DNA from: Medakamo hakoo
Lineage: Eukaryota > Chlorophyta > Trebouxiophyceae > Coccomyxaceae
Assembly (NCBI GenBank): GCA_026636295.1
Contig: CP089463.1
Coordinates: forward strand, 992,001-1,056,000
DNA: 64,000 nt
Reading direction: 5' to 3'
The position numbers were made by a program, and so were the translations under genes. Every line of letters begins with the position of its first letter. The stretch's first letter is position 1. Under the pieces are notes generated by a model, which was not told where the DNA came from, ran no database searches, and was given only the letters and a program-made list of their open reading frames with translations. This document shows, one piece after another, positions 25,555-32,224 of the stretch.

Positions 25555-27072
25555 TCACTTGACGAGCTGGACCTCGCGGTTGAACAGCCACGAGAACTTG
25601 ACCGGCTGCGGCTTGCGGGACTTGAGGCGCCGGTCCTGGATTTCGCACAGGCGCTCCATCTTCTTGTGCAGGCCGAAGATCTCCTCCTGCGCGCGCGCCG
25701 CGTCGGGCGTCAGGCCCGTGCGCTCCGCCACGCGGAAGTGGCCGATCAGGAACTGCATGATGTCGGTGTAGTCCTTGGCCGTGTACGTCCCCGTGCTCTG
25801 CGCGATGGCGGCAAAGTCCTCGAACAGCGTGTTCTTGGCCTTGCCGTTCAGGGACGCGTGCGTGCCGTCGTTCATCAGGTGGGCGGGCATCGTGATGGAC
25901 CGGCGGAACATCGCCTCCAGCGCGAGCATCGCGCCGCTCGGGTCGCGCTCGAACAGCTCGTCCACGATCTTCTGGTACGCGCGCTCGTGGCGGGCTTCGT
26001 CGCCCGCGATGGCGGCGCACAGCTTGGACAGCGTCTTGTCGCCGTACTCGGCCGCGTGCAGGGCGGTGTTGCCGTGCGACACCTTCGTCGCCCGCTCCTG
26101 GAACGACGTGTAGATGAAGCCGTAGTACGGGTTGTTCTCCGTGCCCGGGTCCATGCCCGACCCGATCAGGTTTTGGATGGTCCACTCGATCGCCTTCATG
26201 TTGACGCGGCCCGACAGGTAGCAGTACTTGTTCATCAGGTCGCCGTGCCGGTTCTCCTCGGCCGTCCACTCGCGCGTCCACTTGGCCCACGGCGTGTCGG
26301 CCGCGCCCGTCTCGTCACGCACGCCGTCCAGCGTGTTGAGCATGGCCATGTACGTCGGCAGCGCTTCCTCCGTGATCATGTCGCCGACCAGGACGACCAG
26401 GTAGTCGTCCGGCAGGCCGGCCGTGCGCTGGCGCAGGTCGTGCACCTGGTCCAGGAAGTCGGGCGACGACGAGTCGGGCAGAAAGTCGGTGGGCTGCCAC
26501 AGCGACTCCGTGGAGCGCAGGATGGGGTAGACGTTCTTCTCGACGTGGTCGGTGATGGAGCGGACGCACTCCAGGCGTTCGGCCGTGATGGAGTGCGCGA
26601 CCTGATGGTGCGTGGGTGGGGATGGTGGATGGGAAGCGTGGAGGGAAAGTGAGAGGTGGAGAGGGCGCGCGCGAGCGGGTGCCGCGAGGTTTTCTTTCGG
26701 TGGGGGCTCTTTAGGACGGGCGTGGAGGCCCTGAAACGGCCCTGCTGGCCCGTCCACCGCACCCAGACTGTGCCTGGATGCCTCACGCTCCGATCTGGGC
26801 CGAAAAAGTCTCACACCCATGGGGGCGGCGGCGACCAGCACGCCGCCCAAACGCTGCCACGCCACCCACACGCCCGCGGCGGAGCCGCGCGTTCTTTTCC
26901 TTCCCCGCTCCTCACCACTCACCTGGCCGTTGATGATGATGGGCCCGTCCTTGGGCTTGGCCGATTCGGGCGCGACGACGGCGCGGGCGACGGTGCGCTT
27001 GGGCGCGGGCGCCGAGCCGCGGGCGGCCGGAGAGCGCTGGGCGAGCGCCCGGGGAGCCATTAAGGGAGCCAT
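25555..27072 (-). CDS. SAD: stearoyl-[acyl-carrier-protein] delta-9 desaturase, plastid
   Basis: Exons 27072-26923 and 26601-25555 give 398 residues, like plant SAD/FAB2. The enzyme introduces the 9,10 double bond into stearoyl-ACP in the plastid stroma, using ferredoxin. The first 50 residues are basic and Ala-rich, fitting a transit peptide. Diiron ligands are all present: Glu128 (in TEEALPTY), Glu166 and His169 (EENRH), Glu219 (SFQERAT), and Glu252 and His255 (DEARH). NMKAIEWTIQNLIGSGMD is also typical. The intron separates the transit peptide from the mature enzyme in phase 0. A second ATG lies four codons in. Confidence 0.96.
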   Translation of the reverse strand: MAPLMAPRALAQRSPAARGSAPAPKRTVARAVVAPESAKPKDGPIIINGQVSGEERGRKRTRGSAAGVWVAWQRLGGVLVAAAPMGVRLFRPRSEREASRHSLGAVDGPAGPFQGLHARPKEPPPKENLAAPARARPLHLSLSLHASHPPSPPTHHQVAHSITAERLECVRSITDHVEKNVYPILRSTESLWQPTDFLPDSSSPDFLDQVHDLRQRTAGLPDDYLVVLVGDMITEEALPTYMAMLNTLDGVRDETGAADTPWAKWTREWTAEENRHGDLMNKYCYLSGRVNMKAIEWTIQNLIGSGMDPGTENNPYYGFIYTSFQERATKVSHGNTALHAAEYGDKTLSKLCAAIAGDEARHERAYQKIVDELFERDPSGAMLALEAMFRRSITMPAHLMNDGTHASLNGKAKNTLFEDFAAIAQSTGTYTAKDYTDIMQFLIGHFRVAERTGLTPDAARAQEEIFGLHKKMERLCEIQDRRLKSRKPQPVKFSWLFNREVQLVK

Positions 27073-28171
27073 TTGTTGTTGAGACGCCGTCAGGGGGGAC
27101 AGAGACGCAAAGGCACACACACGCAGGCTGGAGGCGAGCGAGTGTGTGTTCAGGTGTGGGAGCAGGCGCGCCTGCTGGGCGTGAGGTGTGGGGGGAGGGG
27201 CGTGAGAGAGACGGAAGCACCGGCGCGGCGAGGGTCGCGGCGGCCCGGGGGCAGAACAGAAAGGCGTCTGGCGCGCCGCGCAATGGCGGGGGCGGGGAGG
27301 GGGCTTGAGATCGGTTGCTCAGCCCAGACAGGTCGCAGAGCCGTCTGGCACGTTGGCAAAGCGCGGGACGGGGCGTGGGAGGGGGCGGTGGCGACCCGCG
27401 GCGCCCCCCTACGCGTCGAGCGGCTCTCGCGCAGCGAGAGCGAGCGCGCGCGAGCGAAGGCCCGTCGCGCCGCGACGGTCGTGTCGTCGGGGGCGCGCCC
27501 GAAACGAGCTGCGCGCGCGCGCGCCGCACGTGGCACTCCGCCCGTCGCGCGGGCCGGCCGCCGCCGCACTCCGGTCCTAGAGCCTGTCTCCGATCCAGGC
27601 AGCCCGAGAGCAGGAAGCGGAGGGCGGCCTGTCGGCGGGCTGCAAAGCACCGGGCGGTTGCGCCGGGTGCGCGGAAGAAAAGAAATTGGGGACGGGCCGC
27701 GCCCACTCCAACGCCGGCGCCCTGTGCCCTGTTCAGCCCGTGGCAACGGTCAGCAACCCCAATGTGTCACGCACCTGGGGAGGGTGGCGGGGATGCTCGG
27801 GGGCGGAGGAGGCGGGGGGCGAGGAGGCGCCGAAGGCTTGCTGTGCGCGCGAGAATAGAGACTGTGAAAGGCGAGCGGCGGGAGCGGAGAGCAGCGAGGC
27901 ACGCGACCTGCGGGCGAGTCGCAGGGGGCGACCTCGACTCGCGCGGCGCCCGGCCACCCATCCACGGCGCTCGCCGTCGGCCCACCTTTCCTTCCTAATC
28001 ACACGCAGAGCATTCACACTACCCGCCGCAGAACAAAACTCCACTCCGATCGCGGCGCGAACGGCCGCGGCCGCCTATCTCTCTCAAGGCGAGCACTAGA
28101 GAGAGCGCGCTCGCTCGGCTCACGCCCTTCCACTCTCAAACCCTTCCTGTCTGTCCCGTAGGAAGGATTCT
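27073..28171. other. 1.1-kb spacer with CpG-dense core, no gene recognised
   Basis: This stretch lies upstream of the desaturase start and downstream of the decarboxylase-family stop, both on the minus strand. The core from about 27390 to 27560 is extremely rich in CG and GC steps. It contains a perfect 8-bp hairpin (27423-27441) and an alternating GC run near 27509. No frame shows the strong third-position bias of neighbouring exons. It probably holds the desaturase promoter and the 3' UTR of the upstream gene. Confidence 0.4.
27423..27441. repeat. perfect inverted repeat, 8-bp arms
   Basis: GCTCTCGC and GCGAGAGC flank a 3-nt loop, about 350 bp upstream of the desaturase start codon. It could be a hairpin or a site for a dimeric DNA-binding protein. 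Confidence 0.7.
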
Positions 28172-29959
28172 TCATGTGCGGCGGTCGGGGAGCTCCCCGG
28201 TCGCCGCCACAATCGCCTTCCATGCCGCGTCCACGTGCGCCGCCTGCGTGTGCACGCCACCGATCGCCGCCCGCGCGACCGTCCGCCCCCCCACCTCCGC
28301 GCACACCAGCATGGCGTCGCCCTGGCTGTTGACGGCTTCCACCAGGGCGGCCGTCGCCGCGCTGCCGCCCTCGGCCTCCGTCAGCGCAAAGCAGACCAAG
28401 CCCAGGCGGCGGGGAGACGTCACGACGAACCTCGCGTCCCCGCGCACGTGGCCCTCAAACCTCTCCGCCAGCGCCGCGGCGTGCCGGACAAAGGCCTGCA
28501 ACCCGGCGCGGCCGTAGCTGCGCAGCACAAACCACAGTTTCACGCTGCGCAAGCGCCGGCCCAGCGGGATCTGCCAGTCCCGGAAATCCAGCTCATTGGC
28601 CGTGCCGCGCAGGAAAGACGGGGTGAGGGACAGAGCGGACCGGAGGTGCGTCGCGTCTTGCACCCACAGCGGCGCACAATCAAAGTTTGTGAGCAGCGCT
28701 TTGTGCATGTTGGTCGAAAACGAATCCGCCCGCACGAGCCCGCTCCACGCCGGTTGCGGCCGGTGTTCGGGGCAGATGGCGGCCGTGCCGGCGTACGCGG
28801 CGTCGACGTGCAGCCACGGACGGGCGGTGGGCGGCGTGTGTCCGCCCGCCACCGCAGCATCTCCGCCGCCCTCAGCAGCGGGGAACAGGTCTTCCAGCAC
28901 GCGGCCTATTCCATCCACGTCGTCCACGGCGCACGTCGCCGTCGTCCCGATGGTCGCGACGACAAAGCACGGAATAAACCCCGCCGCTAGATCGCTTTTA
29001 ATCGCCGCGGTCACGTCCGCCGCCTGCACCGCCCACCCATCCCGCTCATGCGTCTTCAGCTCCCGCAAATGCGGCACGCCCGCGACCATGCAGGCTTTGC
29101 GGACACAGGAGTGCGCCTGGTCGGACGTGTAGGCGACGAGGCGGGTGGAGGCGGCCAGCGTGGCCGGGTCGGGTGGAGACGGCTGGCCGGGGCCGGAGGC
29201 GACCCACCCGCCCAGGCAGCGCGCGCGCGCGGCCAGCAGGGCGACCAGCACCGCGTCCGACGCGGTGCACTGGATGACGCCGCCGCCGGGGCCACGGGCG
29301 GCGGCGGCGTCGCCGTCGCCGTCGCCGCCGCCGTGGTGGGTGCGGAACCGGGGAGGGAGGGCGAGGGCGTCGGCCAGCCAGTCCAGGACGACGGACTCGA
29401 GCTCCGTCCCGGCGGGGCAGGACGCCCAGGAAAAGCCAATCGCATTGATGGCGCCCGAAATCATTTCGCCCAGCAAGCCCGGGTAACTCGAGTGCGCGGG
29501 GTACCAGGCCATGAAGGACGGCGCCTGCCAGTGCGTGATGCCGGGGACGAGGTGGGCGTCCACGTCGGCCATCACGTCGGCAAACGGCTCGCCTTGTTCA
29601 GGGAGGGCCGCCGGCAGGCGCGGCCTCAAATACCCCGGTTCCACCGCCGCGCGGACGGGCGCAGTCGCCACAACGCGGGTGTGGTAGTCTATGATCCAGT
29701 CGACCAGGGCGTGGGCGTGGGAGCGGAACTTTTGGGATGGGATGGATGGGAACGGGGGGAGGGGGTGTCGTGTGGGGTGGTTGGGCGACGCGAACAAAAA
29801 AACGCAGGCCAGGCCTCCAATCAAAGAGTCCGCGCATCCTTGCCGTCGGCTCACCTCTTCAGGGCCCATGGGGTGTTTGAAGTCGGGAGGGACGGTCGTG
29901 CCGGTCGTGCCATCCTCATGCGGCGTGTTGGGCGGTCCAGCAGCCGGCGGCGGCGGCAT
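28172..29959 (-). CDS. PLP-dependent aromatic amino acid decarboxylase family, predicted aldehyde synthase
   Basis: Exons 29959-29855 and 29728-28172 give 553 residues. It belongs to group II PLP decarboxylases (DOPA/tyrosine/tryptophan type). Visible features are HWQAPSFMAWYPAHSSYPG, the ring-stacking His241 in SDQAHSCVRKA, HVDAAYAG with the pyridinium-binding Asp, the PLP Lys378 in NMHKALLTNFDCAPLWV, and DWQIPLGRRLRSVKLW. The mobile catalytic loop reads TPSFLRGTAN, placing Phe407 where decarboxylases have the proton-donating Tyr (human DDC Tyr332). In plants this Tyr-to-Phe change converts decarboxylation into decarboxylation-oxidative deamination, forming aromatic acetaldehydes. No transit peptide is obvious, so cytosol is likely. 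An insertion of Gly/Asp/Ala follows ALALPPRF. The start lies 141 bp from the HSP60 start. Confidence 0.9.
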   Translation of the reverse strand: MPPPPAAGPPNTPHEDGTTGTTVPPDFKHPMGPEEVSRRQGCADSLIGGLACVFLFASPNHPTRHPLPPFPSIPSQKFRSHAHALVDWIIDYHTRVVATAPVRAAVEPGYLRPRLPAALPEQGEPFADVMADVDAHLVPGITHWQAPSFMAWYPAHSSYPGLLGEMISGAINAIGFSWASCPAGTELESVVLDWLADALALPPRFRTHHGGGDGDGDAAAARGPGGGVIQCTASDAVLVALLAARARCLGGWVASGPGQPSPPDPATLAASTRLVAYTSDQAHSCVRKACMVAGVPHLRELKTHERDGWAVQAADVTAAIKSDLAAGFIPCFVVATIGTTATCAVDDVDGIGRVLEDLFPAAEGGGDAAVAGGHTPPTARPWLHVDAAYAGTAAICPEHRPQPAWSGLVRADSFSTNMHKALLTNFDCAPLWVQDATHLRSALSLTPSFLRGTANELDFRDWQIPLGRRLRSVKLWFVLRSYGRAGLQAFVRHAAALAERFEGHVRGDARFVVTSPRRLGLVCFALTEAEGGSAATAALVEAVNSQGDAMLVCAEVGGRTVARAAIGGVHTQAAHVDAAWKAIVAATGELPDRRT

Positions 29960-30091
29960 GTTTTGTCGTCGCTTGTCTTTCCTGCCTTCTTCGCAGCAAT
30001 GGCAGCGCGTCTCTGCGCGTCGGTCGGAACACACACCGCAAAAGGAAAGAGAGAAAAAAAAAACTCGTGCCCTGCTTTTTCTTCCACCTGA

Positions 30092-32224
<2,133 letters not shown>

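Follow-up and report, generated by a model that had tools for sequence, protein, structure and literature searches.

A predicted Phe-type aromatic acetaldehyde synthase in the ultrasmall green alga Medakamo hakoo

In aromatic amino acid decarboxylases (AAADs), a tyrosine of the catalytic loop acts with the histidine stacked on the cofactor to bring a proton to the quinonoid. The gene considered here, located on the minus strand of a 64,000-nucleotide stretch of contig CP089463.1 (the window, with a G+C content of 72.9%), encodes a member of this family with a phenylalanine at the place of that tyrosine, and the question that it raises is whether its product releases amines or aldehydes. The organism, Medakamo hakoo, is an ultrasmall trebouxiophyte green alga with a G+C content of 72.7% and a genome of 15,811,321 bp in 18 contigs, two of them organellar (PMC9871001). 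Judging from its residues and from the chemistry of characterised relatives, the gene product is predicted, with a probability of about 0.72, to be a Phe-type aromatic acetaldehyde synthase (AAS). Enzymes of this kind are already known, among them some of the scent enzymes of plants, and the assignment is a sound prediction for this alga rather than the description of a new kind of enzyme.

The gene is organised in two putative exons:

29959-28172, minus strand: AAAD-family gene, 553 codons plus stop after splicing
29855..29959, minus strand: exon 1, start codon and N-terminal extension (MPPPPAAGPP...MGPEE), 35 codons
29729..29854, minus strand: putative intron of 126 nt, in frame, GTGAGC...CAAAAG, placed by homology
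28172..29728, minus strand: exon 2, AAAD-family catalytic region (P0001), 518 residues plus stop

We infer a GT-AG intron of 126 nt between the two exons, the removal of which joins the end of the extension (GPEE) to FRSHAHALVDW, a segment whose counterpart in the alignment with human DDC is FRRRGKEMVDY. The residue numbers of the first-pass annotation of this DNA agree with the protein spliced in this way; in an unspliced reading the critical phenylalanine would be residue 449. An in-frame ATG is also present upstream at 30094. The ATG of a divergent, head-to-head open reading frame (30101-32224) that we take to encode a cpn60-type protein is, at 30101, only 7 nt away from it, and position 29959 is for this reason the likelier start. 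The 141 bp between the two start codons (29960-30100) are likely a shared promoter region. A further adjoining open reading frame is presumably acyl-ACP-desaturase-like, and no pathway cluster is seen among the open frames overlapping 27000-31000.

Assignment to the group II PLP-dependent decarboxylases is indicated by a match to PF00282 (E 8e-104) that spans positions 1-374 of the 375 of the profile, and the residues typical of the family are present, namely the PLP lysine in an HK motif, the aspartate of HVDAAYAG and the stacking histidine. The protein lies nearer to AAADs than to the decarboxylases of glutamate, cysteine sulfinate or diaminobutyrate, a comparison made by scores only, with E values of 3e-83 or better against 16 AAAD and HDC sequences and of 3e-16 to 4e-14 against GAD, GADL1 and CSAD. 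The top PDB match by sequence is Arabidopsis PAAS (AtPAAS; 6eei, E 9e-112). In a MAFFT alignment of five, identity is 46% to this enzyme and 42, 43 and 45% to the three Tyr-type references (poppy TyDC, 6eem; Catharanthus TDC, 6eew; and human DDC, 3rbf, the last at 45%). An AlphaFold2 model built from 72 rows has a mean pLDDT of 88.8 and a pTM of 0.91, with a weak loop (mean pLDDT of 60 for residues 371-380 and 54 for residues 381-390). AAAD-family structures are at the top of its best 50 Foldseek matches, where tyrosine decarboxylases take the leading places; AtPAAS ranks 11th and Rhodiola rosea 4HPAAS (6eeq) 37th. Because tyrosine decarboxylases precede both synthases in this ranking, the fold cannot tell a decarboxylase from a synthase.

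The residues on which the predicted chemistry turns are the following:

28613..28615, minus strand: Phe407, codon TTC, in the column of the catalytic loop tyrosine (human DDC Tyr332) in the alignments
28700..28702, minus strand: Lys378, codon AAA, PLP Schiff-base lysine, K in 84/84 other aligned sequences
29111..29113, minus strand: His241, codon CAC (human DDC His192), histidine of PLP stacking and protonation, H in 84/84 others

That Phe407 takes the place of the catalytic tyrosine had been proposed in the first-pass annotation and holds in every alignment made, whether by MAFFT or by HMMER pairwise. In the comparison with plant TyDC, PAAS and animal DDC that had been suggested as a check, the Phe column is upheld, with Phe in 6eei and the loop Tyr in 6eem, 6eew and 3rbf. 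The loop TPSFLRGTAN is present, beginning at residue 404 of the spliced protein, and a tyrosine elsewhere in the loop, which would have overturned the reading, is not found (FLRGTANELDFRDW). An alignment artefact is ruled out, as separate MAFFT and HMMER pairwise alignments give the same phenylalanine in a loop that lacks tyrosine. Lys378 and His241, described as intact, are indeed at these positions of the spliced 553-residue protein. Bacterial relatives were obtained by an alignment scan of the genome_contigs collection, which gave at least 595 candidate stretches, 541 of them confirmed, from which the best 80 were kept. In these best 80 of at least 541 the Lys and His columns are invariant and the column of Phe407 holds Tyr in 74 and Phe in six; aligned with them, the algal protein keeps the PLP-site residues Lys, His, Asp, Thr and Asn. 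The loop tyrosine of canonical TyDC, TDC and DDC is thus replaced by phenylalanine, and the Asn at position 192 that marks insect-type DHPAAS is absent, the alga having His241.

In the proposed mechanism, PLP on Lys378 would form an aldimine with an aromatic L-amino acid, from which CO2 would leave. Phe407 instead of Tyr in the loop would abolish the His-Tyr relay of protons to the quinonoid, and O2 would attack the carbanion, so that aromatic acetaldehyde, NH3 and H2O2 would be released instead of the amine. A single Tyr/Phe exchange is reported to interconvert plant AAADs and AASs, and Tyr-to-Phe to make mammalian DDC and human HDC acetaldehyde synthases (PMC11308512; PMC7497351); Phe is likewise found in the loop of a Psilocybe DHPAAS (PMC7497351). 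The earlier statement that this single difference separates the two classes in plants is nevertheless too strong, since poppy PsTyDC6, whose active site resembles that of typical AAADs, has AAS activity and is bifunctional (PMC8927377), and the insect switch consists of Asn192 plus positions 79/80 (PMC6494836). The direct proton donor, Tyr or His, is disputed (PMC7497351; PMC6411801), and a review assigns protonation of the quinonoid in DDC to His192 (PMC6411801). An AAAD that is bifunctional or forms mainly the amine, the proton being supplied by His241, Tyr111 or water, for example, has to be weighed here and appears rather improbable: His241 is intact and mixed products are reported for PsTyDC6 (PMC8927377) and for insect variants (PMC6494836), but Tyr-to-Phe alone moves plant, mammalian and HDC enzymes to the aldehyde (PMC11308512), and Tyr80, which the alga has, accompanies aldehyde and not amine formation in insects (PMC6494836).

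The aldehyde-synthase prediction is also consistent with the length of the loop:

28574..28624, minus strand: catalytic mobile loop T404-W420, Phe-to-Trp span of 14 residues

The algal loop (FLRGTANELDFRDW) has 14 residues, four fewer than those of 6eei, 6eem, 6eew and 3rbf (18 each), a feature that, like Tyr80 and Ala379 described below, had gone unmentioned in the first-pass annotation, which was correct on Phe, Lys and His. The loop has 18 residues in 78 and 17 in two of the best 80 of at least 541 bacterial relatives, and 16 in fruit-fly DDC. Human DDC and human HDC, which resemble the algal protein in fold and PLP site, differ from it in having the loop Tyr and loops of 18 and 16 residues, respectively. 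Among solved enzymes whose loop was read (6jrl, 7xin and 9hri left out), a 14-residue loop recurs in Rhodiola 4HPAAS alone, where it likewise carries Phe (FLKGGSEMVDYKDW). Because the 6eeq loop equals the algal one in length, the combination of a short loop with Phe is known from a named aldehyde synthase; the algal length is found among known Phe-type synthases (6eeq, 14), unlike that of 6eei (18), and the short loop common to the alga and Rhodiola 4HPAAS is a possible structural correlate of the oxidase state. The Rhodiola enzyme differs from the algal one in having HVDGAYGG (HVDAAYAG in the alga) and Trp after the PLP Lys, and is placed among land-plant AAADs in the 120-row tree. An overlooked intron is ruled out as the source of the loop gap, the DNA being contiguous and in frame at the loop.

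Two further sites of the active centre distinguish the algal protein:

29501..29506, minus strand: Trp110-Tyr111, equivalent to positions 79-80; Tyr80 is common to AtPAAS and many insect DHPAAS
28697..28699, minus strand: Ala379, where relatives have Trp (human DDC Trp304) in the 121-row alignment

The residue after the PLP lysine is Trp in 119 rows, Phe in one and Ala in the alga, the 121 rows including one duplicate. Position 79, Trp in the alga, is Tyr in 58 and Phe in 22 of the best 80 of at least 541 bacterial relatives, in none of which Trp at 79 or Ala at 304 occurs. Ala379 in place of Trp and Trp at 79 in place of Tyr or Phe would count as cautions against the aldehyde-synthase reading, as would the weakness of the loop in the AlphaFold2 model. 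Tyr80 is present in three of 16 Phe rows (the alga, AtPAAS and L007) versus one of 105 Tyr rows (L013), with 6eeq outside the count, and the Fisher p of 0.007 for this enrichment is only suggestive, because the rows are related, include one duplicate and count the algal protein itself; Phe80 is present in 13 of the 16 Phe rows of this 121-row alignment. In silkworm DHPAAS, the share of aldehyde is reported to fall, by estimate, from 95 to 67% when Phe79-Tyr80 is changed to Tyr79-Phe80 (PMC6494836). The insect enzymes, for which 6jrl (from Drosophila) is a solved structure, thus resemble the algal protein in Tyr80, found in many of them, and in the oxidative outcome predicted for it, and differ in the Asn192 switch, as the alga keeps His (PMC6494836). 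Likewise, AtPAAS shares with the alga the loop Phe, Tyr80, Gly354 and the PLP residues, and differs in its 18-residue loop, the Trp after the PLP Lys and Tyr instead of Trp at position 79.

As to the substrate, a rule for plant enzymes holds that Ser or Gly at the equivalent of human DDC position 354 tells the phenolic from the indolic substrate class. As this position is Gly in AtPAAS, CrTDC and human DDC as well as in the alga, it does not settle the substrate. W79, Y80 and A379 might reshape the pocket of a synthase or decarboxylase retuned to a natural substrate other than Phe, Tyr or DOPA, to which the absence of Trp79 and Ala304 from the best 80 of at least 541 bacterial relatives would correspond. 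Such retuning is nonetheless unlikely, as the alga carries the commonest bacterial residue (best 80) at eight of 12 tabulated active-site positions, the exceptions being 79, 80, 304 and 332, and the best-matching AAAD-type structures bear names that refer to aromatic amino acids or histidine. Least probable is a weak or decaying enzyme, in which the loop deletion and the loss of Trp would reflect relaxed constraint. The algal end branch is the longest of the 120-row tree (0.92), the loop lacks four residues and Ala379 recurs in no other of the 121 rows, but the 553-codon frame is intact, with a G+C content by codon position of 0.72/0.57/0.86, the PLP site retains its Lys, His, Asp and Thr, and the solved 4HPAAS also has a 14-residue loop.

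The origin of the gene was approached with trees. In a mixture-model tree of 34 rows, the algal protein, four plant enzymes and human DDC group together versus 28 bacteria (support 99/95), and a quick 120-row tree gives the same grouping of the algal protein with a support of 96. The algal branch is long in the 34-row tree as well (1.43), where a clade of the alga with plants alone is neither recovered nor rejected (p-AU 0.175). The highest identity of the algal protein, 51%, is to the Tyr-type bacterial L056, and its path length in the 34-row tree is 2.37 to the Tyr-type L053 and 2.38 to AtPAAS; Tyr-type bacterial proteins are thus as similar to it as any Phe-type one, and closeness to AtPAAS is weak evidence. 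Transfer from bacteria is not favoured, given the grouping with plant and human enzymes at 99/95, despite the 51% identity to L056 and the long branch. A single-sequence scan of genome_contigs and a scan of viral_contigs gave no match, and the plasmid collection gave at least 223 records, each below 60% identity and the first among the matches listed at 41%.

Within the 15,638,232-base, 16-contig assembly, a PF00282 profile search identified five places, including the AAAD-family gene. The others are a glutamate-decarboxylase-like locus (L002; 367 bits versus a cut-off of 380.4), a diaminobutyrate-decarboxylase-like locus far under the cut-off (L003), a locus that we take to be sphingosine-phosphate-lyase-like, with no family over the cut-off (L004), and one that exceeds the cut-off for the histidine decarboxylase model and that we presume to belong to the plant serine-decarboxylase group (L005). 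L003 (G000:C7:781909-782703) lies in an 850-codon open frame with Gly- and Ala-rich stretches, its diaminobutyrate-decarboxylase-like domain scoring below the curated cut-off. PF00282 and P0001 searches of the 15.6-Mb genome found no second AAAD-type gene, Tyr-type included, P0001 matching only itself; as reading was exon by exon and the best candidates alone were scored, an intron-split gene could escape such searches. Copper amine oxidase (PF01179) has no match in the exon-by-exon search of the genome, and the 17 matches to the flavin amine oxidase family are too broad to interpret. In Chlamydomonas and Volvox, group II decarboxylase genes are reported to number only three (PMC4993783). The aldehyde-synthase class proposed in the first-pass annotation is supported by the Phe column, the loop as short as that of 6eeq, Tyr80 and the fact that these searches found no Tyr-type paralogue, while its further statement, that the alga makes phenyl- or hydroxyphenyl-acetaldehyde rather than tyramine or dopamine, exceeds the evidence both in naming the substrate and in excluding the amine.

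If the prediction is correct, a minimal free-living green alga would make aromatic aldehydes and H2O2 with a single gene, and no aromatic amines by this route, and the reported range of Phe-type aldehyde synthases, plants and a mushroom (PMC11308512; PMC7497351), would come to include an alga. No description of an algal aromatic acetaldehyde synthase was recognised in the titles and opening parts of abstracts surveyed, a scope outside which the 2020 PNAS structural paper on plant AAADs falls, and the word decarboxylase is absent from the main text, as available, of the Medakamo genome paper (PMC9871001).

The switching between Tyr and Phe in bacteria is a more promising lead towards something new than the algal gene. 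Phe-type loci make up six of the best 80 (L007, L033, L044, L045, L060 and L078) and resemble the algal gene in the Phe column and, for L007, in Tyr80; unlike it, they have an 18-residue loop and Trp after the Lys, and form part of a separate bacterial group. Further Phe-type loci are L102, L103, L105, L107, L123, L126 and L127. In the family of L044 (Micromonospora), seven of 29 further loci read, from 40 matching genomes among 121, carry Phe; in the order of the cyanobacterium L033, with seven matching genomes among 100, Phe is found in the starting locus alone. The 13 bacterial Phe rows are scattered among close Tyr-type kin in the 120-row tree, on which they and the three eukaryotic ones, 16 in all, require at least 12 Tyr/Phe changes. 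A wider proposal, to which we give slightly less than even odds, is that the amine/aldehyde switch has been flipped repeatedly across life by one codon, that the aldehyde state has become fixed in the alga, whose only AAAD-type enzyme has a short loop convergent with that of Rhodiola 4HPAAS, and that the Phe-type bacterial 'decarboxylases' of Micromonosporaceae, other actinobacteria and a cyanobacterium are unrecognised aromatic acetaldehyde synthases. Automatic 'decarboxylase' names may in this way hide aldehyde producers; a general literature search, not made name by name, found in the sources available no characterised enzyme of the bacterial Phe-type set.

The neighbourhoods of nine Phe-type and nine Tyr-type bacterial genes were also compared, the presumed AAAD cluster being recovered in 17 of the 18 regions (eight Phe, nine Tyr), and no neighbour gene that would explain the Tyr/Phe switch was found in them. 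Of nine shared neighbour clusters scanned, one is without a Pfam match and eight match pyruvate kinase, acyl-CoA thioesterase, glycoside hydrolase 3, LacI, TauE, rhamnogalacturonan lyase, luciferase-like and ROK families. The luciferase-like monooxygenase cluster is present in four Phe regions (L131, L132, L133 and L134) and in none of the nine Tyr regions; nothing is drawn from this, as the four Phe proteins are close kin, which is the probable cause of the sharing. A rhamnogalacturonan lyase gene also lies near the Phe-type gene in these same four regions, and its cluster is represented in one of the nine Tyr regions.
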